A stretch of 43,983 bases of DNA from a virus. This document shows positions 17,550 through 29,224 of the stretch, piece after piece. Under the pieces are notes generated by a model. That model did no database searches. It worked only from the letters and a program-made list of their open reading frames with translations, and was not told the origin of the DNA. Location of the stretch: the IMG/VR virus record IMGVR_UViG_3300031269_000026, positions 1 through 43,983 of that record, one strand, 5' to 3'. The translations under genes were made by a program, and so were the position numbers. Position 1 is the first letter of the stretch. Every line of letters starts with the position of its first letter.

Positions 17550-17825
17550 CTACCGGCCCAGGTCGCCACCCATCTGCGGCTCATCAAAGAAGGCATCATC
17601 TGCCGTGATGATGGCGGCAGTCTCAAGCACGGCTGCGCAAAATTCCTCCCGGGTTTCCGGAAGCCGGACGGTTTCGGGCATCGCAAGTGCCTTTTCCACG
17701 TTTCGCGCCGTCTGCCACTGCGCATCTGCAATGTCGGGAGCCCCGGCCAGCGTCACTGTATTGGTGACGATAGCGACGGGAATTGCCACGCAAACGGTCA
17801 GGATGATCGCCTCGGACACCTTCAT
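17550..17825 (-). CDS. Small membrane-anchored virion-region protein
   Basis: A 91-residue protein with an N-terminal hydrophobic segment (AIILTVCVAIPVAIVTNTVT) and a soluble remainder (ETREEFCAAVLETAAIITAD) ending QMGGDLGR. It starts within the last codon of the giant gene (ATGA overlap), so its translation is probably coupled. The role is unknown; its position between the ejection protein and the spike suggests a late product. Confidence 0.55.
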   Translation of the reverse strand: MKVSEAIILTVCVAIPVAIVTNTVTLAGAPDIADAQWQTARNVEKALAMPETVRLPETREEFCAAVLETAAIITADDAFFDEPQMGGDLGR

Positions 17826-20800
17826 GGAATCAGCTTTTGCAAGCGCAGGAACTCCTTGTTGAATTGAACATATAGGACCTGCTGCGCTTTCTCAATGCGC
17901 TCGTATTCCGCCATGCGGGCCCGATCATCGAGGCTCTTGTCAAGGCGGGCCTTCATCCGCTCCCTGTTCAGCCCGCTGACCTGGCGGTTGATCCTGTTCG
18001 CCTGCGTGTACATGCGGTCGAGGATCTTGTAGCGCGCATCCACTGGTTCCCCTGCATCGTCGCCCTGCTTTTTGCGAGAGTGCGCGTCCCTGACTTCGCT
18101 CAAGCGGTCGTAATAGGCGCGACGATCCATCCAAACGCCGGTGGTGACTGTCACCTTTGGAAGGAACGGTATGGCCCGGTCATCAATCAGATCCGCCTTT
18201 CCGGTCGCGGCCTTGACCGCGACGTCGATCGTGTCCGTCCAGAACGTGCCCGCGCTGCCGGTTGCGGTCCCGATGGCGTGATCAATGTATTCCGGTGAGA
18301 CATCCAGCCACCCGCTTTGCGCCGCGTTTCCGCCTGTTTCCCGGTTGAGATAGTCGGCCACCTGGCGCGACATTTCAGAGACCCCGACATAATGCTTGTA
18401 GGCCATGGGCCCATAGTCGCTGAAATCGTATTCCGGGCGGATCGGGTTGCCCAGCCAGTTCTCGTTGTTCCGGAACTCCATTATGTCCTTCAAAAGAATC
18501 GGCGTCACCATGTCGGCGGGGTCGGTGAACCCCAGGGGCGATACGTCTGACGCGGCAGCGATTGCCACGTCCAGCATAGCCTCGTCTGCCGTCTTGACCC
18601 CGCGAAACACCTTGCCGATCTGGCGCCCAGCATAAGGGAACACCGAATAGACGTAGGGCATTGGCACGGACACGGCATCGTCCATCTGGCCCACGCCGCC
18701 CACACCATCTTCGCCCTGACGAACCATGAACAGGAAATTGCGCCGCGACTGGTAATCGGGGATCTTGTCATAGGCCAATTCGTCATCATCATCCGTGGCC
18801 GACAGCGAGGCGTTGACCAGATCCTCCATCAGCCCGTAGGACAACAGACTTGCCCCGACCGCCAAGCCGTACTTGCTGGTAAACACCGAAAGGAACACCT
18901 GCAGGCCTTGAATAGCCGCGTTGAAGAACAGGAACATTGCGTTTAGCCACGTCCAGTTGCCGCGGCGGTTAAAATTCACCGTGAGGTTCTTGGCCAAAAG
19001 GGCGGCGTCCTGCTTGGACCACCCCCGCTTGCGGGCCTCGACGTAGGACGCCAGCCGTATGGCGTTGTCCACTGCAATGTTGGTTCGCTCGATCATGCCC
19101 AAAGGCACGTTGTCCCGCGTCGAAAAGAACGCCCGGGGTCGGGTCGCTACTTTCAGGATCCGGGCGGCGCGATTGCCGCGCGCCAGGTCGATCCGGCGCG
19201 ACATATCCTCAGTTCCGGCGGTCGGATTGTCGAGCGTCCAGAAACTGATCTTAGCGCCTGCTTCCTCAAACTCTTTCCAGTGTCTGGTCCATACGGTGTT
19301 TTCCTGGTTGCCCATGCCCTTGAAGGACCCCATGAAGGCCTTGCCCCATGTCTTTGATACAGCCGCACCAAACCCCTTGGAGTCCGTCATCTGCGGCAGG
19401 TTGATCTGCGCGGCCTGAAAATCCCGCAGCGCGTTCGTAACGACAAACTCAGGGTTCAACATGGTGAGGATCATGGATTTGTAGCGTGTATAAGCCCCCA
19501 GTACGCGGACAACGCCGTTCAACTGATCCGCGCCGACCGCCCCGAGCGCATTAGCCAGCCGGTCATCATGCAGTACGATCCTGTGTTCATGACCCTGGAT
19601 CTTGATCGCAAACTCGTTGGGCTCCAATCGGCTGTTGGCAGGTTGCTCGACACGCGTCTCCACAAGCCCGGTCGTGCGATTGTAGAACCGCTTTTGCTTA
19701 GGCTTTTTCACCGACCACATGGCGTCGGACGGGTGCGCCTTGGCCAGTTCATAAAGTGCCTGCGACACGCGGTTTTTCTCAGCCCGGATAGAAACCTCCT
19801 TGGCCTGAGTAATTGCCGATATCAGCGGATTGAAGGCCATTGAGTTTCGGCCCATGGCGCGCATGCTTTCCGGGCCCCGCACGTTGTACCGTGGGCCGGT
19901 GCGGCGCGCGTCCAGTGTCGCCTCCGCGCCATCGCTCTCATCAAAGCCCTGCAACGGCACATAATGGGCGTACTGGTTTTTCCAGATTACATATTCCTTG
20001 GCCGACAACAGCCCGGCATCGCGCCGCAGTTTCAGTGTCCGTTCGCGCAGTTCATCAACCAAGTCGCCAATCTGGTCCAGTTCCGCCTGGTGCGCGCCGG
20101 ATGCCATTTGCGCAAGGTATGCGTCAGCATCCGCGTCCGTGATGCCCGACCCGCCGTCAGGCATGGCCAGGTTGATCGAAGCGATGCGCGCGTTTCGCTC
20201 CTTGGCATGACGTGCCGCCAGCCAGTCGCCCACGTTTTCCGTTGTCAGACCGCCATTGGTCTTGGCAATGATGTCGATGATCGGCTTGGTGAAATCCTCG
20301 TCGATCACAAACAGATGCCGCCCGGCCTTGCCCGAGAATGTCGTTTCGGTGGCGTAGGCATTGAGGTGGTTGGGCACGGGCCGTCCAGTGTCGGCCTCGA
20401 TCGCCTGCTGTGCCCGCAGTACGGGTAAGAAGCGGTCCTGCACGTTGAACCGGGCCTTGTCGATGTTGTCGTAGATCGCGGCGCCAACGCCTCGGATCCT
20501 GCCAAAGACAGAGACACCGGATCGCGTCAGTTCATCCCAGATTACCCGGTCGGGCACATGCACCGGCAGCGGCCCCGGCGGCGGTGGCCCCGGCGGTGTC
20601 GGACGGATGCGCGGCATCGGCGGGTTGCGCTGTTCCATAAGGGACGCGATGGATGCCGACTCCGCATTGCGCGCTCCGATCTGCCCGGCGATGACCTTGC
20701 CGAACACGCTTTCTGCGGTGGTAAATCCTTCGCCCCGCATGGCGTTGCGGATTGCCTTGAGCATCCGGTGGATCTTGTTGAACGCCCGGACCAGCAAAGA

Positions 20801-23800
20801 ACCCTGCGGTGCCGAACGGCTGGCCGCCCGCTGCGCAAATTCCTCCGCAATGGCTTCCTCGATCATTTCAGACGGCAACAGGTCAGGATACCGCGCCCGA
20901 ATGTCGTGTTTCTCGACCCAGCCGCGCTTGGCCGCAGCCTCAAGGGCCGACCATTCCTCCTTGGTAAACAGGTTCATCGCCCGCATGGCGTGGATCGCCT
21001 CATGGTACAGCGTGGCCATGGGGTTGATCGCCTGCCCGATCAGAACGTCGATCTGGCCCATGCCGTTCGCGCGCATGGCACCCTGGCGGTTTGCGCCGGG
21101 CACATCCATGTCCAGACCGACACGCTTGAGGTTCAGCCGGTCCAGTTCCGCCCGCAGCGCAGGTAGCATTGCCGATGCGGCATCACGATCCATGGCGGTG
21201 CCCGTGGCGGCGGGGCGCTGCTCTGCGGCGATTGGCTCCACAATTGGGTTCGCATCTTCAAAACCCTGAACTGGCTTGGCGATGTCCTCGATGAACGCCT
21301 TGCGGGCATCCTCACTGCGGAACGCAAAGGTCGGGCCCTTGCCACGCTTCTGTGCGGCCTTGTGCCACCATCCGCCGTGCGTCTTGGCAACAGCATTGAG
21401 GCGAACGAACTGGCCCTTGTCGACACGGCTTTCCATCGCGACGGCAGGGAACACCTTTCCCGCCCTCGATGTCACTGTCGTCATGGTTTGCGCGCCAGGA
21501 TCGGACGACACGGGCGCGGTCACGCGCGTCCCGGTGTCACCCTGGGCGGCGGCATCCGCTGCGTCTGCGGCATCCATGTCAGCTTCAACACCAGACGGGC
21601 CGATGCGATCGGGCCGGGCCGGGCCTGCGATGCCTTCAAGCCGTTCGAAGAAGTCGGCAATGGTGCCGGATCCGGTCATGTTGATGTTGGCGGCAGGCGT
21701 GAACGCCTCGGGCTTCATCACCCGGTCGAAGATCAGGACCCGGGCCGCAACTGCGGTGCCCGCACGCTCGAACGTCACGGACGGCAGGGACACGTCAGCC
21801 GAAAGGTTCCACTCGATGGACGTCTTGCCTATCCGGTCCATGAGTTTGCCGAATTGCTTGTCAGCTGCCGGGCCGGTCGGGACCAGCGCAACGACGCGAC
21901 CGCCGGGCCGCGTGTGCTGCATGGCTTTCAGGAGGTGGTCATATGCTGTCTTGCCGCCCGAACCGAACGGCGGGTTCATCACGACCACATCGTACTTGTT
22001 CACAATGTTCAGGTTCTCGAACGTGTCGTTGACCACGCGCGACCCCGGCGCCAGCAACTCGGCGCGGCTCGACAGATCCGCAGACGGCTCGACAATCGTC
22101 CGGTCGGCATGGCCGGGAAAGTAGCGCGCGATCGCCCCGTCACCAGCAGACGGTTCAAGCACCTTGTCGTAGGGCCTGACACCCGCCCACTCGACCATCT
22201 TGAGCGCCAGCGGTTCAGGCGTCGGGAAAAAGTCCAAACCCTTGCGCTGGTCGCGCTTGCCCTTCATTTTCTGGCGGCCGTAATAGTGCGTCTTGGCCTT
22301 GTCGAACTCGCTGGCCGTGTTGTCCACGCTGTCCCGTGCGCGACCGCCGATCCCGTCGCTCGATGATGGCAGGTTCCTGTCGGCCTCGGTGTAGGCATCG
22401 ACAAAAGCCTGTTGGATGGCCCGGGCCTCGTTGCCCATGGCGAGGTTTTCAACGGCGCCGGACTGTTCGGCGATGCGCCGGGCGAAGGCCTCACGCTCCC
22501 ATGCTGTGCCGATCGTGTAGTAGCGATAGGGTGCATTGGATACGCTGCCCACGCGTCGGGTGCGTCCCTCGGCCTGCAGGCTTGTGGTTGGCTTGGTCGG
22601 CATGCCTAGGTTGATCATAACGCGTTGGTGGCCGCCGGTGGTGTCGTGCAGGCTGATGCCGCCGGACCCTGCGTCTGACTGGACAACAAGCACGTCGACA
22701 CCGGACCCATCCAGATTGAACGCGTCCTTGTTTTCGGACCTCTTGCCTTTCGATATGGTGCCGTTGAACTCTCGGGCCTGATCGCCGAACGCCTCCATGA
22801 TCTGATCTTTCGGCGCTGTCAGACTGCCAAAATCCAGATCGTTGAGCCACGGCAAGTCGCGCTCCATCTGCATGCGCGCGGACTTGAGGTCCTCTGTTCC
22901 TGTGACCTTGAACGGACTGGTCGCCCCGCCCACGTTGAAGTCATGGAACACCACGACCTTGCGCCCCATGGCGAGGTGCTTTCTGATGTCTGGAATAGCC
23001 GCCTCGGCCTTCATGGCTTCCAGTAGCTGCTGGCGTTTGAGATATGTGAAATTGCGATTGACGGCCTTTCCCAATTCCTCCCAGCCCATAGCCGCAACCC
23101 TTTTTGCGTCGATGCCCTCCTGACCCGTCGTGCTGTCCTTGATTGCGGCCTGCAGTGCGGCCCGCTCCTCGGACTGCTTTTTCCAGATGTAGGCAATGGC
23201 CTCGTCAATCTTGCTGCCGATTTTATTCTCGACCGCAACAAACTTGCGGTCATAGTCAACATCAACCTCAAGTTTGCGCCCCCACAACGACCCCTCGCGC
23301 TTGAGCCTTTCGTGAAACTCGCGCTGGAACACGCCCCGGTCAACTGCGGCCTCGGGTTGGGTCAGCTTGTGATAGCGGATCCTGTATCCAAAGTTCTCGA
23401 CCATGAACCACTCGCGCCCGCCCTGATCGCTGCCTTCGCGGCGCTCGTCCTTCGGGTAGTCGAACAGATACCCCTCGCCGTAGTCCGTGTTTTTCTCATA
23501 GGAAAACGGCGTGGCCGACATGAACAGGACATTGCTACGCGGTGCTGTCGCCTTCTTGGCCGCGTCCCGTGCTTCCTGATAAACTGCGGCCATGGCTTCG
23601 GACTGTCGGTCCTTGTTGGTAATCGCGCGGGCCTTTGCCATCGCATCCCGTCGCTTCATCAATTCCTTGTCGAAAAGGTGCGTGGGCTTGTTGCTGATCG
23701 CGCGCAGGGTCCGCAGGGCTCCGGTTTGCTCCCCGGCCTTGTTCTGGGAAAGCGTGTGCGCCTCGTCGGCGATCACAAGATCCCATTCCCGATCTGCCAA

Positions 23801-26800
23801 AGTCTCATTGTTGGCTAGGTTGGCATAGGTGGTCACAAGCACAGGGCCGCGGCCCTCGCCATTGTCGCTGACGCCGTCCATCTGTGCCGCGTCCAATCCG
23901 GTCATTGGCGCAGACTCAACCCAATTGCGGGCTTCCTCCGCAGACCTGACCACGACCAGAACGGCCTTCGCGCCCCTGTCGACCGCGCGTTTGGCCGCGC
24001 CCAGCCCGGTGAACGTCTTGCCCGTGCCGACACCGTTGGTGATCAGCATGCCAAAGCCTTGCTTCTTGCCGTCCTCGGGCCGGAATAAACGCCGTTCGAT
24101 CCGCACCACGTCATCCACTTGCGCGGGCTGCAGTTGCGGCACGCTCTTGGCCACCTCCGCATGGTGCCTGGTCGGCGGGCTGTAGGTGTTGGTTACGCGG
24201 TCGGGGCTGTTTGTAGCAGTTTTTCGAGTTTGATCTGATCCTGAGTCGTCAGGCCGTAGTCCCGGCTGGCTGCGATCACCGCCATCTGCACCGTCTCCAT
24301 CACGGTCAGGCCGTCGCCCAGAGGGTCGCCCGTCGCCTTGAACGCCTGCACCGCTGGTGCCTCCCACAGCGTCGGCATCACGGCCAGGTAGGCCAGCGCC
24401 ACCGTCTCGCTGCCTGCCTCCTTGGTCAGCCGCTTCATTTCGGCCGCCATCTCGTCGTCCAGGACGTCCTGCGGCAGGGGAAACATCGCTTCCGCCCAAC
24501 TGGTCCTGAGATCCTGCGTTTCCGCTATCGCGTTCCACACTTCCGCCGGGTGCCTGTGCATCTGTCTCTCCTGTCAGGTCGATCTTGCCAGAACGCGCGT
24601 CGGCAAGGAAGCGTTCGAAGTAAGGGCGCATGGCGCGGAATGTCTCGCGGGTCAGGCCCTCGGCCAACAAAGGTCGCGCCATTGCGATATAGGCATCAGT
24701 GTCCGACATTGCATCAAGATCGAAGCCTTCGATGTTGCGCGCGAAGATCGGGACAGTGGCCGCGTAGGTGTCATCGTCAAAGGACGCGGTGTCCTCCTTC
24801 AACCCGCCGGGTTTCTTGCCGAACAGGTTGTTGAGCGCACTCGCGTCGGCAGACTTGGACGGCTTGCGGGGCGCGCGGGCAGGCGGCGGCGTCATCTGGA
24901 TCGGTGCGGCGTCTGTGGCGGCAGGGCCTTCCGCCTTATCCGATTCCGCACCAAACAGCGCGGCCTCTGCTGCGTCGAAGTCGGTTACTTCAGGCCCTGA
25001 TACCCGCCCGTTTCCGTCGCCACCTTGCGAATTTTGCGGAGTTGATCCAGTTCCGCCTCGTCCAGCGGGTGCAGGCCGTCCCGCTTCTCCGTCTCGACCA
25101 TCAGCCTGATCCGGGCCTCTATCTCGGATCGGGGTGACATCGAATCCAGCCCGTCCAAGCTGAGCGCGAACCTTGGCATCGGTTGCTTTGAATACTTCTC
25201 GGACATCAATGCTCTCCTTCTCAACAATTTGGGCAGAGTTGCCCGAAAAATCAATGACCCCATGCCGATGCAGGATCAGGTTAAAGATATGCCCATGAAC
25301 CGCATCCGCGACGTCTGCCGAAAGCGTCCCGCCTTTGACTTGCGGCAAAAAGTGCTGGAACAAAACCTGATGCACGCGATTGACAACGTCCTTGCGCGCG
25401 CCAAACGCAGCCTTGTCGTCCCACTTGTCCGCTGCCTTGTACCCGGGCCCCTTCCGAGCCGTGCTGACCGCACCCTTGTGCCCCATCGCGCGCACCTCGG
25501 GGAAGCCGACGCCCATTATTGTGATGTCTGCCGGGGAAAAGCCTCTATTGCTCGGGTGGTTGTGGGTGACGTACCCCACGAGACCGGCGTTTGCGGCGCG
25601 GTAAAGCGCATAAGACGGGTCCACTGACCCTCTGTCGCCCGATATCACCTCAAGCGGCAGGCCGTCCACGTCGAGCGCAACCAATATCTCCACGCCCGTA
25701 GCTTTGCCCTCCGCAAGAACAAACTCATCGGCACGCGCCTTTCGTGCTTCCATGGTTGGCAGGGCTTCCATGTCTGCCAGAAACGCAATGGAGTCCGCGC
25801 TTGTCGAATAGTCACGGCTTACCACCGGGAGTTTTTCGCCCGGCTCACGATATCGGTCGAGGCGTGCAGTCATTTTTGCCCGCGGGTCGGCATCAGTGTC
25901 CCGCCCGCCACCATCCTCGATATCGCTCTGTGCGTTGAACAAGGGCCCGCCGTCATCCTGCGGCGTGGTGGTGCCTATCTTGGACTGGTTTTTTCTGGTG
26001 TCGGCCTGCGCCTTGGCTTTGGCGTCGGCGGCGGCCTTTACCGCAGCGGCATTGGTGTCGCTGTCCCGCTCAAAGCCTGGCATGACGCCTTGCTCGCCCT
26101 CGGGCGTTTGTTCCGTGTTGCCAAACAAGGACGCCTCGGCGGAGTCAAATGGGTCTGCCGCCGGGGCATCTTGTTCCGGCGTTACTTCCGGGGCTTGGGC
26201 TTGCCCCCCTTGCGGAGCCAGTTGTCCACCTGCGCCGCCGCCAGCCTGGCCCTCTTGGCCTCCTGCGCCAGTTCCTTGAAGCGATCCGATGATATCCCTG
26301 AGAAACGCCCGGCGGGCTCTGGCGACGGGTTCTCCGGATTTGACGGCACGGGCGGCTTTTGTGAGCGCATCACTGATCGGTCCCTTCATGTTGGCTTGGC
26401 GCTGGATGTATTCCAGAACCTTTGCGTCCTGCTGAACCTGCGCCTCGTTGGCGTTCTGGTCCAGCGTGTTGCCCGCGCCCTCGATGGCTTCGCCGTTCTT
26501 CAACAGCGTGTTGAACGCGGACTTGTTCTTGCGAAGATCCTTGACGGCCCCGTCGAGAACCTTGGCCCGTTCCAGATATAGGGACTGCGCAACCTGTTCG
26601 CTACCGAACATATCGGTCTGGGTCTCGGTCGCCGTGTTGGCAGCGGCGTCTCTGGCGATCATTTCGGCCTGCGCTGCGTTGATGCTCTGCTTTTTGCCTA
26701 GAGTCGTCAGCATGCCCAGAATGTCGGCCTGTACGGCCTGATCCTTGACCACACGCCCGACCACAGACCCATCACGATCACTTGCGACGTTATTCGCCAC

Positions 26801-29224
26801 CATGCCAAAGGCGTCACCGGACAAGCGGCGCAGCCCTTCGGCGTCGCGGACAAGCGCGGACTTCGGCGGCAAGCCAAGATCCTCGATGGACTCGTTTCGG
26901 TCGCGCAAGACCCTTGCAGCATCCAGCGCCGTACCTGTGCCCTCGCCGATGTTCTTGAGCGCGGCAAGAGACATGACCTCCTTGGCGGTATATCCGTCCG
27001 TCTCGTTGTAAATAAGTGCGGGCATGCCGCCCACATCAGCCTGTCCAGATTCCGCCGCGCGCTTGGCGAGGCCAACACGCTGGTGGCCGTCTGCGACAAT
27101 CAGGCGCCCGTCCTTGGTGCGATACAGCATTGCTTGACCGGCCCGCGCCGGGTCAAAATTCCTGACACCCTGTAGCCGATCCGTGACGCCGGACTCATCA
27201 CCGCCGCTCTTGTACTGAAATATGCTGGCGTCAGTCTCAAGAGACAGCATTTCCTCGCTGGTCAGAAATTTGCTCTCAGGCCCGCCAGACCCGGAAGGCG
27301 TAGGCGTCGCAATGTCGGCCTGCTGACCTGCAGTAGCATTCTCGGCGGGGCGGGATCCGGGTCCCATATCGGCGTCAACCGCCCCACCTTGATCCGCACC
27401 CGGGAGGACGGGCACGGATTCCGGTGTCTCTGTTGCTCCATCATCGACAACCTCGACGGCCCCGGTCTGCGTGTCGAAACGCACGGTGCGGCCTGTCTCG
27501 CGCTGTTGATCGCCCTGCCCTTCGATTTCGGGCAAAAGCTCGTACCGATCTGGCGCATCCGGATCGAGCGGCATTTCCGGCGTGTCTTGCGGCGCGGCCT
27601 CTGGTGCGGCCTCTGGCGTTGCAGTTGGTGCTGCGGCGGGCGTTGTGGTTTCCTCATCGCGGTCTCGACTGCGGCCAAGGGCATTCGCCCCGCCGCCCAT
27701 TAAGCCGCCAAGGATCGCCCCGACAAGCGCCTGCTTTCCAACGTCCTTGTTGATGATGTCCTGTTCTGGGTCGTAGACGCCCAAGGCAATCAGGTTTTGC
27801 CCGATCGCCAATCCGCCCTCCTGGATGCCTTCCTCGATGCTGCCTTTGAATGTTGCGGATGCGAACCGACCGAGGCGACCAAGGATGTCACCCCTTACGC
27901 TGTCAGGAAGTCGGCCCAGTGCGCGCCATAAGGGGATGGCCTCGGACGTGCCCATGAACCCGGCAATTGCGGCCGCCGTCTGCGCATCGCGCTCGCTGGC
28001 GCCGGACTGCTTTGCCCGGTCATAGGCTTCCGTCTTGGCGACATCGGCGCCCATTTGCGCGGTGACAACCGCGCCATATGGTCCGGCAACAATGGGCGGC
28101 ACCATGAACGCCACCACAGACCCCGCTCCAGAAAACAGATCAGACCAAAGGGAATCGTCCTGCGGCGGCACACCAAAGGTTTTGTCCGTCCAGTCTTTCA
28201 GGGCGTCAGCCGTCCGCTCTGCCTTTTGCGTCCTGTAGCCTGCAAAGACCGGGCCGAACTCTGCGGTGTCGCTCCACTGCGCAACGGCTTCGGTCGCCTG
28301 GTCGAGGCGCTGGGTGTATGTAGCGCGCTCCTGCGGTGTCATTGGCGACTGGCCGTCATCCGACAAGCCTTTTGCAAGGATGTCCTCGAACGACTGGACT
28401 TGGCGCGCGGCCTCCTTCACCCATTTCGGCGCGTCTCGCTTGATCGCATCGAAAAGAGTCTTGTCGTTGATGCCTCGGGCGCGGACGATGCTTTGGAAAA
28501 CCCCCGATGCGCCTTGCGCGACTTCCTGGCCGCGACGCGTTGCCAGATCGCCAAAGGTTTCATCGGCGAAGGGGTCGACGGCTTTTGCGGCAGGCGGTGC
28601 GCCCGGCACGTTGGTCGCCTGCTGGTACTGCTGCCAGCCGATACCCTTGCCCTGCATGGCATCGAGAATGGATTGCCCGTTGCCCGGTATGGATTGCCCG
28701 GAAGGCATTGCGGGGCTCGGCATGGCCATTGGCGGTGCGGGTGGCGTCACTTGTGGTGGGGCGGCCTGCATCGGTGCGCCCGACGGCTGCGTGGCCTGCC
28801 GGTATGCCTGCTGTCCAAAAGACGGTCCTTGCATGGCCTGCAGCAAAGCCTCGCCAGTGGCCGGGACGATCTGTTGCGCCGCGACTGGTGGCGTCTGGCC
28901 CGGCGCCATGGGCCGCAGGGATGTTACGGGCGGCAGGTCCTGCTTCGGCATTGGCGCTGCGGCTGGGGCATTGACGCCGCGCATCATGGCCACAATGTCT
29001 TGCGGAGCGGACGGCATTGCGGGCTGCGCCGGTGGCGTCTGCGGCATGGCGGGGCGCGTCTGAGGCTTGGGCTCCGGCGCGGTTACGCCGACCTTGCCAA
29101 AGAAATCCGCCCGATCCATGTCTGAATAGAACCGCGCGTGCAGTGCTTCCGCCAGGGACGAGTCGTCAAGATCCCCGTATTCCGGAAATTTGCGCCGAAT
29201 GTCGGAAATTTTGATGTCAGCCAT
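17822..29224 (-). CDS. Giant polyvalent ejection protein, DarB-like (3800 aa)
   Basis: A single 3800-residue ORF. In order: a PxYxDLDD-type N-terminal motif (1-50); a Pro/Ala/Gln-rich linker; hydrophobic helices near 375 and 508; a ParB-like nuclease motif (ADGHQRVGLAKRA, about 714); a JAB/RadC-like HNHPS motif (about 1221) with S..D nearby; a helicase with Walker A GVGTGKT (about 1735), DEAH (about 1820) and a second helicase half (SDAGSGGISLHD, about 2187); an adenine-methylase NPPF (about 2418); a zincin HEAIH (about 2742); and an LPD38-like C-terminus with a hydrophobic region near 3440. Such proteins, like P1 DarB, are packaged and injected to protect incoming DNA. Three linkers carry nested +1-frame ORFs. 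Confidence 0.85.
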   Translation of the reverse strand: MADIKISDIRRKFPEYGDLDDSSLAEALHARFYSDMDRADFFGKVGVTAPEPKPQTRPAMPQTPPAQPAMPSAPQDIVAMMRGVNAPAAAPMPKQDLPPVTSLRPMAPGQTPPVAAQQIVPATGEALLQAMQGPSFGQQAYRQATQPSGAPMQAAPPQVTPPAPPMAMPSPAMPSGQSIPGNGQSILDAMQGKGIGWQQYQQATNVPGAPPAAKAVDPFADETFGDLATRRGQEVAQGASGVFQSIVRARGINDKTLFDAIKRDAPKWVKEAARQVQSFEDILAKGLSDDGQSPMTPQERATYTQRLDQATEAVAQWSDTAEFGPVFAGYRTQKAERTADALKDWTDKTFGVPPQDDSLWSDLFSGAGSVVAFMVPPIVAGPYGAVVTAQMGADVAKTEAYDRAKQSGASERDAQTAAAIAGFMGTSEAIPLWRALGRLPDSVRGDILGRLGRFASATFKGSIEEGIQEGGLAIGQNLIALGVYDPEQDIINKDVGKQALVGAILGGLMGGGANALGRSRDRDEETTTPAAAPTATPEAAPEAAPQDTPEMPLDPDAPDRYELLPEIEGQGDQQRETGRTVRFDTQTGAVEVVDDGATETPESVPVLPGADQGGAVDADMGPGSRPAENATAGQQADIATPTPSGSGGPESKFLTSEEMLSLETDASIFQYKSGGDESGVTDRLQGVRNFDPARAGQAMLYRTKDGRLIVADGHQRVGLAKRAAESGQADVGGMPALIYNETDGYTAKEVMSLAALKNIGEGTGTALDAARVLRDRNESIEDLGLPPKSALVRDAEGLRRLSGDAFGMVANNVASDRDGSVVGRVVKDQAVQADILGMLTTLGKKQSINAAQAEMIARDAAANTATETQTDMFGSEQVAQSLYLERAKVLDGAVKDLRKNKSAFNTLLKNGEAIEGAGNTLDQNANEAQVQQDAKVLEYIQRQANMKGPISDALTKAARAVKSGEPVARARRAFLRDIIGSLQGTGAGGQEGQAGGGAGGQLAPQGGQAQAPEVTPEQDAPAADPFDSAEASLFGNTEQTPEGEQGVMPGFERDSDTNAAAVKAAADAKAKAQADTRKNQSKIGTTTPQDDGGPLFNAQSDIEDGGGRDTDADPRAKMTARLDRYREPGEKLPVVSRDYSTSADSIAFLADMEALPTMEARKARADEFVLAEGKATGVEILVALDVDGLPLEVISGDRGSVDPSYALYRAANAGLVGYVTHNHPSNRGFSPADITIMGVGFPEVRAMGHKGAVSTARKGPGYKAADKWDDKAAFGARKDVVNRVHQVLFQHFLPQVKGGTLSADVADAVHGHIFNLILHRHGVIDFSGNSAQIVEKESIDVREVFKATDAKVRAQLGRAGFDVTPIRDRGPDQADGRDGEAGRPAPAGRGGTGSTPQNSQGGDGNGRVSGPEVTDFDAAEAALFGAESDKAEGPAATDAAPIQMTPPPARAPRKPSKSADASALNNLFGKKPGGLKEDTASFDDDTYAATVPIFARNIEGFDLDAMSDTDAYIAMARPLLAEGLTRETFRAMRPYFERFLADARSGKIDLTGETDAQAPGGSVERDSGNAGSQDQLGGSDVSPAAGRPGRRDGGRNEAADQGGRQRDGGAGLPGRDADAVGGTSGAGVQGDGRPSGRRPDRDGDGADGGDRSQPGLRPDDSGSDQTRKTATNSPDRVTNTYSPPTRHHAEVAKSVPQLQPAQVDDVVRIERRLFRPEDGKKQGFGMLITNGVGTGKTFTGLGAAKRAVDRGAKAVLVVVRSAEEARNWVESAPMTGLDAAQMDGVSDNGEGRGPVLVTTYANLANNETLADREWDLVIADEAHTLSQNKAGEQTGALRTLRAISNKPTHLFDKELMKRRDAMAKARAITNKDRQSEAMAAVYQEARDAAKKATAPRSNVLFMSATPFSYEKNTDYGEGYLFDYPKDERREGSDQGGREWFMVENFGYRIRYHKLTQPEAAVDRGVFQREFHERLKREGSLWGRKLEVDVDYDRKFVAVENKIGSKIDEAIAYIWKKQSEERAALQAAIKDSTTGQEGIDAKRVAAMGWEELGKAVNRNFTYLKRQQLLEAMKAEAAIPDIRKHLAMGRKVVVFHDFNVGGATSPFKVTGTEDLKSARMQMERDLPWLNDLDFGSLTAPKDQIMEAFGDQAREFNGTISKGKRSENKDAFNLDGSGVDVLVVQSDAGSGGISLHDTTGGHQRVMINLGMPTKPTTSLQAEGRTRRVGSVSNAPYRYYTIGTAWEREAFARRIAEQSGAVENLAMGNEARAIQQAFVDAYTEADRNLPSSSDGIGGRARDSVDNTASEFDKAKTHYYGRQKMKGKRDQRKGLDFFPTPEPLALKMVEWAGVRPYDKVLEPSAGDGAIARYFPGHADRTIVEPSADLSSRAELLAPGSRVVNDTFENLNIVNKYDVVVMNPPFGSGGKTAYDHLLKAMQHTRPGGRVVALVPTGPAADKQFGKLMDRIGKTSIEWNLSADVSLPSVTFERAGTAVAARVLIFDRVMKPEAFTPAANINMTGSGTIADFFERLEGIAGPARPDRIGPSGVEADMDAADAADAAAQGDTGTRVTAPVSSDPGAQTMTTVTSRAGKVFPAVAMESRVDKGQFVRLNAVAKTHGGWWHKAAQKRGKGPTFAFRSEDARKAFIEDIAKPVQGFEDANPIVEPIAAEQRPAATGTAMDRDAASAMLPALRAELDRLNLKRVGLDMDVPGANRQGAMRANGMGQIDVLIGQAINPMATLYHEAIHAMRAMNLFTKEEWSALEAAAKRGWVEKHDIRARYPDLLPSEMIEEAIAEEFAQRAASRSAPQGSLLVRAFNKIHRMLKAIRNAMRGEGFTTAESVFGKVIAGQIGARNAESASIASLMEQRNPPMPRIRPTPPGPPPPGPLPVHVPDRVIWDELTRSGVSVFGRIRGVGAAIYDNIDKARFNVQDRFLPVLRAQQAIEADTGRPVPNHLNAYATETTFSGKAGRHLFVIDEDFTKPIIDIIAKTNGGLTTENVGDWLAARHAKERNARIASINLAMPDGGSGITDADADAYLAQMASGAHQAELDQIGDLVDELRERTLKLRRDAGLLSAKEYVIWKNQYAHYVPLQGFDESDGAEATLDARRTGPRYNVRGPESMRAMGRNSMAFNPLISAITQAKEVSIRAEKNRVSQALYELAKAHPSDAMWSVKKPKQKRFYNRTTGLVETRVEQPANSRLEPNEFAIKIQGHEHRIVLHDDRLANALGAVGADQLNGVVRVLGAYTRYKSMILTMLNPEFVVTNALRDFQAAQINLPQMTDSKGFGAAVSKTWGKAFMGSFKGMGNQENTVWTRHWKEFEEAGAKISFWTLDNPTAGTEDMSRRIDLARGNRAARILKVATRPRAFFSTRDNVPLGMIERTNIAVDNAIRLASYVEARKRGWSKQDAALLAKNLTVNFNRRGNWTWLNAMFLFFNAAIQGLQVFLSVFTSKYGLAVGASLLSYGLMEDLVNASLSATDDDDELAYDKIPDYQSRRNFLFMVRQGEDGVGGVGQMDDAVSVPMPYVYSVFPYAGRQIGKVFRGVKTADEAMLDVAIAAASDVSPLGFTDPADMVTPILLKDIMEFRNNENWLGNPIRPEYDFSDYGPMAYKHYVGVSEMSRQVADYLNRETGGNAAQSGWLDVSPEYIDHAIGTATGSAGTFWTDTIDVAVKAATGKADLIDDRAIPFLPKVTVTTGVWMDRRAYYDRLSEVRDAHSRKKQGDDAGEPVDARYKILDRMYTQANRINRQVSGLNRERMKARLDKSLDDRARMAEYERIEKAQQVLYVQFNKEFLRLQKLIP
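24193..24561 (-). CDS. Nested ORF 3 inside the giant gene (+1 frame)
   Basis: A 122-residue ORF over giant residues 1554-1677, ending just before the helicase domain. The ATG at 24561 follows AGGAGAG by 6 bases. By hand count about 101 of 122 codons end in G or C. The protein is helical and normal in composition (HPAEVWNAIAETQDLRTSWA; MAAEMKRLTKEAGSETVALA; YLAVMPTLWEAPAVQAF). The giant frame here is Gly/Asp/Arg-rich (GRPGRRDGGRNEAADQGGRQ). This is the best supported of the three nested ORFs. I recognise no family. Confidence 0.65.
   Translation of the reverse strand: MHRHPAEVWNAIAETQDLRTSWAEAMFPLPQDVLDDEMAAEMKRLTKEAGSETVALAYLAVMPTLWEAPAVQAFKATGDPLGDGLTVMETVQMAVIAASRDYGLTTQDQIKLEKLLQTAPTA
24985..25206 (-). 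CDS. Nested ORF 2 inside the giant gene (+1 frame)
   Basis: A 73-residue ORF over giant residues 1339-1413. The ATG at 25206 follows AAGGAG by 8 bases. The product (MSEKYSKQPMPRFALSLDGL, then EIEARIRLMVETEKRDGLHP and a LDEAELDQLRKIRKVA helix) has ordinary globular composition. The giant frame here is the low-complexity DRGPDQADGRDGEAGRP stretch. It ends just before the giant frame returns to a normal segment (EVTDFDAAEAALFG). No family is recognised. Confidence 0.55.
   Translation of the reverse strand: MSEKYSKQPMPRFALSLDGLDSMSPRSEIEARIRLMVETEKRDGLHPLDEAELDQLRKIRKVATETGGYQGLK
26182..26370 (-). CDS. Nested ORF 1 inside the giant gene (+1 frame)
   Basis: A 62-residue ORF in the +1 frame over giant residues 951-1014. 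Its second half (DRFKELAQEAKRARLAAAQV then DNWLRKGGKPKPRK) is an amphipathic basic helix whose codons almost all end in G or C. Over the same bases the giant frame reads GTGAGGQEGQAGGGAGGQ. The ribosome-binding site is only moderate (AAGGGA). Its first half overlaps a normal-looking part of the giant, so it may alternatively record an ancient frame change. Function is unknown. Confidence 0.4.
   Translation of the reverse strand: MRSQKPPVPSNPENPSPEPAGRFSGISSDRFKELAQEAKRARLAAAQVDNWLRKGGKPKPRK

Follow-up and report, generated by a model that had tools for sequence, protein, structure and literature searches.

A putative 73-residue gene nested in the +1 frame of a giant phage gene, with other nested reading frames in the linkers of the giant family

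A 73-aa open reading frame, termed here n73, is situated in the +1 frame of a giant phage gene and is very probably an overprinted gene; there are no expression or proteomic data, and this reading relies on comparative analysis of sequences. It is held with considerable confidence that n73 is a real, selected gene overprinted in an inter-domain linker of the giant and translated by the scheme given below. What was observed is a +1 frame that keeps its place, its start and its stop in distinct giants, that is conserved at the protein level, and that coincides with a shift in base composition. Length of the frame and presence of a ribosome-binding site are only suggestive; it is the conservation and composition tests that, as far as sequence comparison can go, support the status of n73 as a gene.

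The nested reading frame and its host gene

The window, by which is meant the whole stretch of DNA analysed, corresponds to a virus record of 43,983 bases in which portal and terminase genes are present. The host reading frame of n73 (Table 1) matches helicase and LPD38 models as well as PHROG families of giant proteins and of methyltransferases, and its relatives carry names such as DarB-like or PLxRFG. It meets the criterion for a phage large polyvalent protein, i.e. a very long multidomain open reading frame with helicase, methyltransferase and LPD regions. The giant fully encloses n73, which is on the same strand and in another frame, so that the criterion for an overprinted gene is also met.

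Table 1. Features of the window discussed in the text
Feature	Coordinates	Strand	Description
Host giant	29224..17822	minus	3800-aa DarB/PLxRFG-like large polyvalent protein; helicase, methyltransferase, LPD38
Helicase/methyltransferase region of giant	21653..24154	minus	Bait used for finding relatives
n73	25206..24985	minus	73-aa ORF; ATG at 25206, TAA ending at 24985; +1 frame of giant
AAGGAG, Shine-Dalgarno-like	25219..25214	minus	7 nt (AGCATTG) before n73 ATG; giant-frame codons for EKE
n122	24561..24193	minus	122-aa ORF in next linker; +1 frame; AGGAG 6 nt before ATG
Third nested ORF	26370..26182	minus	~62 aa, upstream linker; +1 frame; weak RBS

An earlier note on this DNA gave the coordinates of n73 correctly but without the strand, which is the minus strand. 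The AAGGAG that it described is present, at 7 nt from the ATG and not at 8. It also described the giant-frame reading as low in complexity, and the translation across n73 is indeed DRGPDQADGRDGEAG. A globular composition, claimed there for the n73 product, is only partly right: the predicted structure is a two-helix hairpin (helices at residues 25-43 and 47-62) with loose ends and a mean pLDDT of 68, the helices alone being at about 85. A conserved segment, (L/I)GLDGxDSxSPRSEI, precedes the first helix. No match to the n73 of the window was found in Pfam or PHROG, and the best in NCBIfam (E 0.093) is far below the model cut-off; a PHROG search with two further copies gave no match either. The n73 model has no counterpart among viral folds (BFVD) at E 1e-3, a type of search that cannot show that a fold is new.

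Conservation of the nested frame

Relatives were reached via the helicase region of the giant, first among named phages and then with an alignment (A1), whose yield was 80 loci in viral contigs plus another 66 in genome contigs. Single-protein queries with the giant found no relatives in viral contigs, where the alignment succeeded. An A1 search of 394 genomes gave mostly methyltransferase-only matches, and these were left unused.

Homologues of n73 are present in six other distinct giants, L009, L010, L011, L012, L013 and L014, the last of these at the same place as in L089, a Salipiger marinus locus. All seven copies are in the +1 frame and in the same linker, at a distance of 833-1412 nt ahead of the helicase. 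Each has an ATG and a stop codon of its own, and the length of the N-terminal part differs between them. The six relatives share the core (L/I)GLDGxDSxSPRSEI and most also have a C-terminal ATExGG; the L010 copy is shortened and has no Shine-Dalgarno (SD) motif. The sample consists of these seven distinct copies and one relic, known mostly from uncultivated virus contigs. A hidden Markov model (HMM) of the six others recovers the n73 of the window at E 3.4e-20 in a search of 40,976 open reading frames. The same holds for every copy, each being recovered by the HMM of the other six, and the best unrelated frame has an E no better than 0.025. The earlier claim that the giant contains another nested gene, placed in a linker of its own and in the same +1 frame, is upheld, since six further distinct giants keep the frame, the start, the stop and the position; absence of such conservation would have refuted it, and this was tested and not encountered. 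The observation itself is confirmed and its interpretation as a nested gene is supported, on the strength of sequence comparison, with translation inferred only.

Which of the overlapping frames is conserved? The mean leave-one-out score across the n73 stretch is 71 bits for the +1 frame, 38 for the giant frame and 22 for the third frame. In pairwise alignments of giants, which span about 2000 codons, windows were ranked by +1 minus giant-frame identity, and the n73 window comes first in the L010-L011 comparison and third in L012-L013. (The n122 rows were not used for L010-L013, where n122 is situated further upstream.) In both pairs, the first codon position of the giant changes more than the third across n73: changes at the three giant codon positions number 18, 11 and 13 in L010-L011 vs 115, 75 and 233 in the helicase, and 28, 18 and 19 in L012-L013 vs 137, 110 and 219. 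Identities across n73 taken from whole-giant alignments are not higher in the +1 frame for the window and L014 (giant 0.44, +1 0.41) or for L009 and L011 (0.48 and 0.38), and are slightly higher for the window and L009 (0.38 and 0.43). With the n73 proteins of the window and L014 aligned directly, identity is 54% in the +1 frame vs 49% in the giant frame. The criterion of protein-level selection on the nested frame beyond that on the host frame is met, with the pairwise windows giving a mixed picture.

The tree built from 26 helicase regions places n73 in a single supported group only, where seven of the ten rows have it. The contig of another row in this group, L088, ends 768 nt before the helicase match, and the place of n73 is not visible. 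The helicase relatives L002 and L008 are without n73 and have other small +1 reading frames there, those filling the linker in L002/L150 and in L008 being different.

Nested reading frames across the giant family

The linker next to that of n73 carries the sister frame n122, which an iterated HMM search detected in 145 of 153 giant/helicase frames, 144 of these inside the giant at +1, with 126 distinct proteins. The eight frames without it are helicase reading frames of fewer than 900 codons with little upstream sequence. The n122 start is ATG in 92/92 distinct contexts, and 67 of the 92 have an SD-like motif. The structural model of n122 has a pLDDT of 96.6 and a pTM of 0.89; there is no match in BFVD at E 1e-3 and none in PDB, the best VIA Z being 3.4. 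All eight of the named phage records that hold n122 annotate only the giant at that place. The third nested frame of the window has related +1 frames in L014, with a GTG start, and in L009.

Some loci depart from the usual arrangement. In L062, L063, L067, L073, L075, L077, L078, L102, L104, L106, L127 and others, of which the named ones are from Acinetobacter, the helicase frame has only about 1240-1285 codons and the giant seems to be split, with n122 still at +1 just before the helicase. Stand-alone helicase reading frames of about 610-860 codons, without n122 or the giant, are found in L111, L112, L117, L119, L132 and L133, which are Aquimarina, Allomuricauda and Chryseobacterium contigs. 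These might represent an ancestral or a reduced state.

How common are nested frames in the family as a whole? A codon-usage scan of 134 giants found 74 +1 frames that overlap n122 and 54 further ones in 45 giants, and none in +2. On repetition the count was 129, again all in +1, with 0.6 per synonymous shuffle for comparison. Frames in the first 150 codons of stop-to-stop frames, giants with short flanks, and the duplicates L089, L040, L065, L092 and L001 were left out of the scan. Near-identical loci, e.g. those of Acinetobacter, were kept, and the counts do not represent independent cases. Nor are the frames listed all necessarily genes, as some (L021, L041, L145) resemble low-complexity translations. 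Both n122 and n73 of the window pass the scan of giants; the third frame, with a score of 19.5, is below the cut-off. The confinement to one frame has a suggested source in the giants themselves: the +1 frame offers roughly ten ATG codons for each one in +2, and below 57% GC it also contains fewer stops.

Other nested frames are particular to certain lineages. At L019:4678-5166, the nested +1 frame encodes an HNH endonuclease (phrog_3377, E 8e-45); the giant frame stays open across it and reads as a Gly/Asp-rich linker. The podophages L003 (Parlo giant, aa 788-870) and L004 (ZX1 giant, aa 1041-1098) have a further nested +1 frame in common in an upstream linker; in the Parlo giant no other GC3 minimum is as deep as the one found here (z -7.83).

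It is conceivable that the linkers of the giant family constitute a dedicated second coding layer, with a folded 122-aa core, common to phages whose bacterial hosts belong to several phyla, and lineage-specific accessories that include n73 and the HNH endonuclease. The nested genes would be translated by internal initiation in +1, would have been missed by annotation and would have shaped the linkers instead of being shaped by them, and their products would be partners of the giant in packaging or ejection. This broader proposal could equally well prove right or wrong.

Origin of n73

Did n73 arise within the giant gene, or was it once a separate gene that landed in the linker or was enclosed by a fusion, and is now a passenger with the giant frame the younger of the two? 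The second possibility concerns origin only and is compatible with n73 being an overprinted gene. It is a serious contender, with the balance leaning slightly against it. The HNH endonuclease of L019 provides a parallel, as there the giant frame reads through a recognizable gene as linker. The linker over n73 is likewise of low complexity while the codon-position composition of n73 is normal, and in L002/L150 and L008 this linker is filled by other small reading frames.

Against a once separate gene counts the lack of any free-standing n73 in the searches of phages, viral contigs and plasmids and of the 394 genomes, and the stand-alone homologues in related phages anticipated by the earlier note did not come to light. 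A tblastn search of phages with the n73 protein gave no homologue, and a search of viral contigs with the protein gave none. A query designated A3 gave five loci in viral contigs, all on contigs already among the relatives of the giant. Plasmids had no n73, although the query was a blended one and the test weak. The genomes of L088 and L150 lack n73, and that of L089 has only its known copy. The 394 genomes, all of one family, gave three matches. One is the known Salipiger copy, in the same genome as L089. Another is a chromosomal relic, G228 (L163), where an intact n73 is beside a giant-frame linker remnant that has no match to the giant of the window. The third, of 22 bits within a 569-aa frame, was judged to be due to chance. 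The exclusive use of the +1 frame would also be favoured by birth inside an existing gene.

Chance and base composition

Could codon bias, in a linker that is rich in GC and low in complexity, have produced n73 as a mere by-product, with similarity in +1 echoing homology in the giant frame? Openness of the frame does not speak against this: the +1 frame of the window giant has 11 ATG-initiated reading frames of at least 73 aa, and between 37 and 39% of synonymous resamplings leave the n73 segment open (P 0.37-0.39). The giant has two SD-led ATG reading frames of at least 73 aa in alternative frames vs 0.38 expected in 500 synonymous-codon shuffles (P 0.044). Length together with a ribosome-binding site was rejected as proof of n73 on these grounds. 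In addition, the conserved core of n73 is mirrored by a conserved giant motif, GRAGF, which corresponds to GLDG in n73.

Base composition points the other way. GC by codon position is 0.66/0.48/0.72 for the whole giant; across n73, the GC3 of the giant drops to 0.41-0.55, with GC1, the third position of the +1 frame, at 0.69-0.79. A similar fall in GC3 with high GC1 is seen across n122. When amino acids are taken into account, no GC3 minimum of the giant is deeper than these two, n73 ranking first (z -6.03) and n122 second (z -5.63), and giant-frame GC3 is depleted across n73 in 7/7 copies (z -4.2 to -7.0, with the copy of the window at -6.3). In view of this depletion, the higher leave-one-out scores of the +1 proteins, the restriction of GRAGF-like motifs at this place to giants that carry n73, and the family-wide excess of +1 frames over shuffled replicates, a by-product is highly improbable.

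Translation of n73

An SD-like motif is found within 16 nt of the start in 6/7 copies of n73, and the background rate is 12.4% of 14,872 +1 ATGs. Ahead of the ATG the +1 frame stays open over 8 to 57 codons, depending on the copy, and the copies do not visibly resemble one another there; homology is therefore taken to begin near the ATG. This makes internal initiation likely and a frameshift product unlikely. A programmed frameshift would make n73 the 3' portion of a longer product, in which a truncated giant ends in an n73 tail. This reading is suggested only by the single frame of all nested frames found, which a shared shift mechanism could give, and it is very doubtful, as the upstream codons look unrelated (slippery sites were outside the test), SD-like motifs precede most n73 starts, and the one-frame bias has a simpler possible source in the abundance of ATGs and fewer stops in +1 below 57% GC.

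As an overprinted gene, n73 would most likely be translated by ribosomes that start at its own SD/ATG on the late mRNA of the giant and stop after 73 codons; both internal initiation and its timing are inferred. Ribosomes in the giant frame would cross the same DNA and produce a Gly/Arg/Asp-rich disordered linker, which may tolerate dictation by the other frame. The n73 product is predicted to be a small two-helix hairpin. Any function is likewise inferred. The idea that n73 serves as a small partner, either of the giant or in virion assembly, and is made together with the giant and alongside the conserved 122-aa nested product, is weakly held, as it is inferred from place alone.

Significance and comparison with known systems

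Overlapping genes as such are nothing new, but linkers of this kind would have to be read differently if those of a single giant contain a repeated, frame-locked set of small genes, one of them conserved in nearly every giant examined. If the proposal is true, a folded and conserved phage protein has been left without a name by present annotation. Removal of the nested start need not alter any amino acid of the giant, so that a clean experiment is possible. The nested set also offers a test of how overprinted genes originate, by birth inside a gene or by capture.

The host reading frame is of the same kind as the large polyvalent proteins of phages (Iyer et al. 2017, PMC5512222), with its huge size, its helicase and methyltransferase regions and LPD38. 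Genes nested in giants are not mentioned in the portion of that paper available, whereas here a second coding layer is proposed in the linkers. A literature search that included PMC5512222, PMC9144972, PMC9505181 and PMC13299392, some of it in partial text only, turned up no account of nested genes inside giants of this type; bioRxiv and most of the subscription literature were outside its coverage. In Burkholderia phage JC1, a DarB-like giant was detected in virions by mass spectrometry, according to the accessible part of PMC9144972; its membership of the present giant family is not established.

Serratia phage Parlo has an annotated o-spanin embedded in its i-spanin gene. An embedded o-spanin has its own start and is in another frame inside a larger phage gene. 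n73 is similar, being a small phage gene in another frame of a larger one. It differs in that it has no cysteine and therefore no lipobox, so that the criterion for a nested o-spanin of the Rz1 type is not met, and in that it is situated in a giant of the virion module and not in a lysis cassette.

Known same-strand viral overprints are mostly single overlaps in compact genomes. n73 shares with same-strand overprinted virus genes, as treated in the available text of a review (PMC8227390), the encoding of two proteins by one stretch of DNA in different frames. The nested frames described here differ from known viral overprints in that the linkers of a single giant gene of a phage appear to accommodate several small ones, in +1 in every case, and in that one nested gene is present in nearly all of the giants examined while others differ by lineage.
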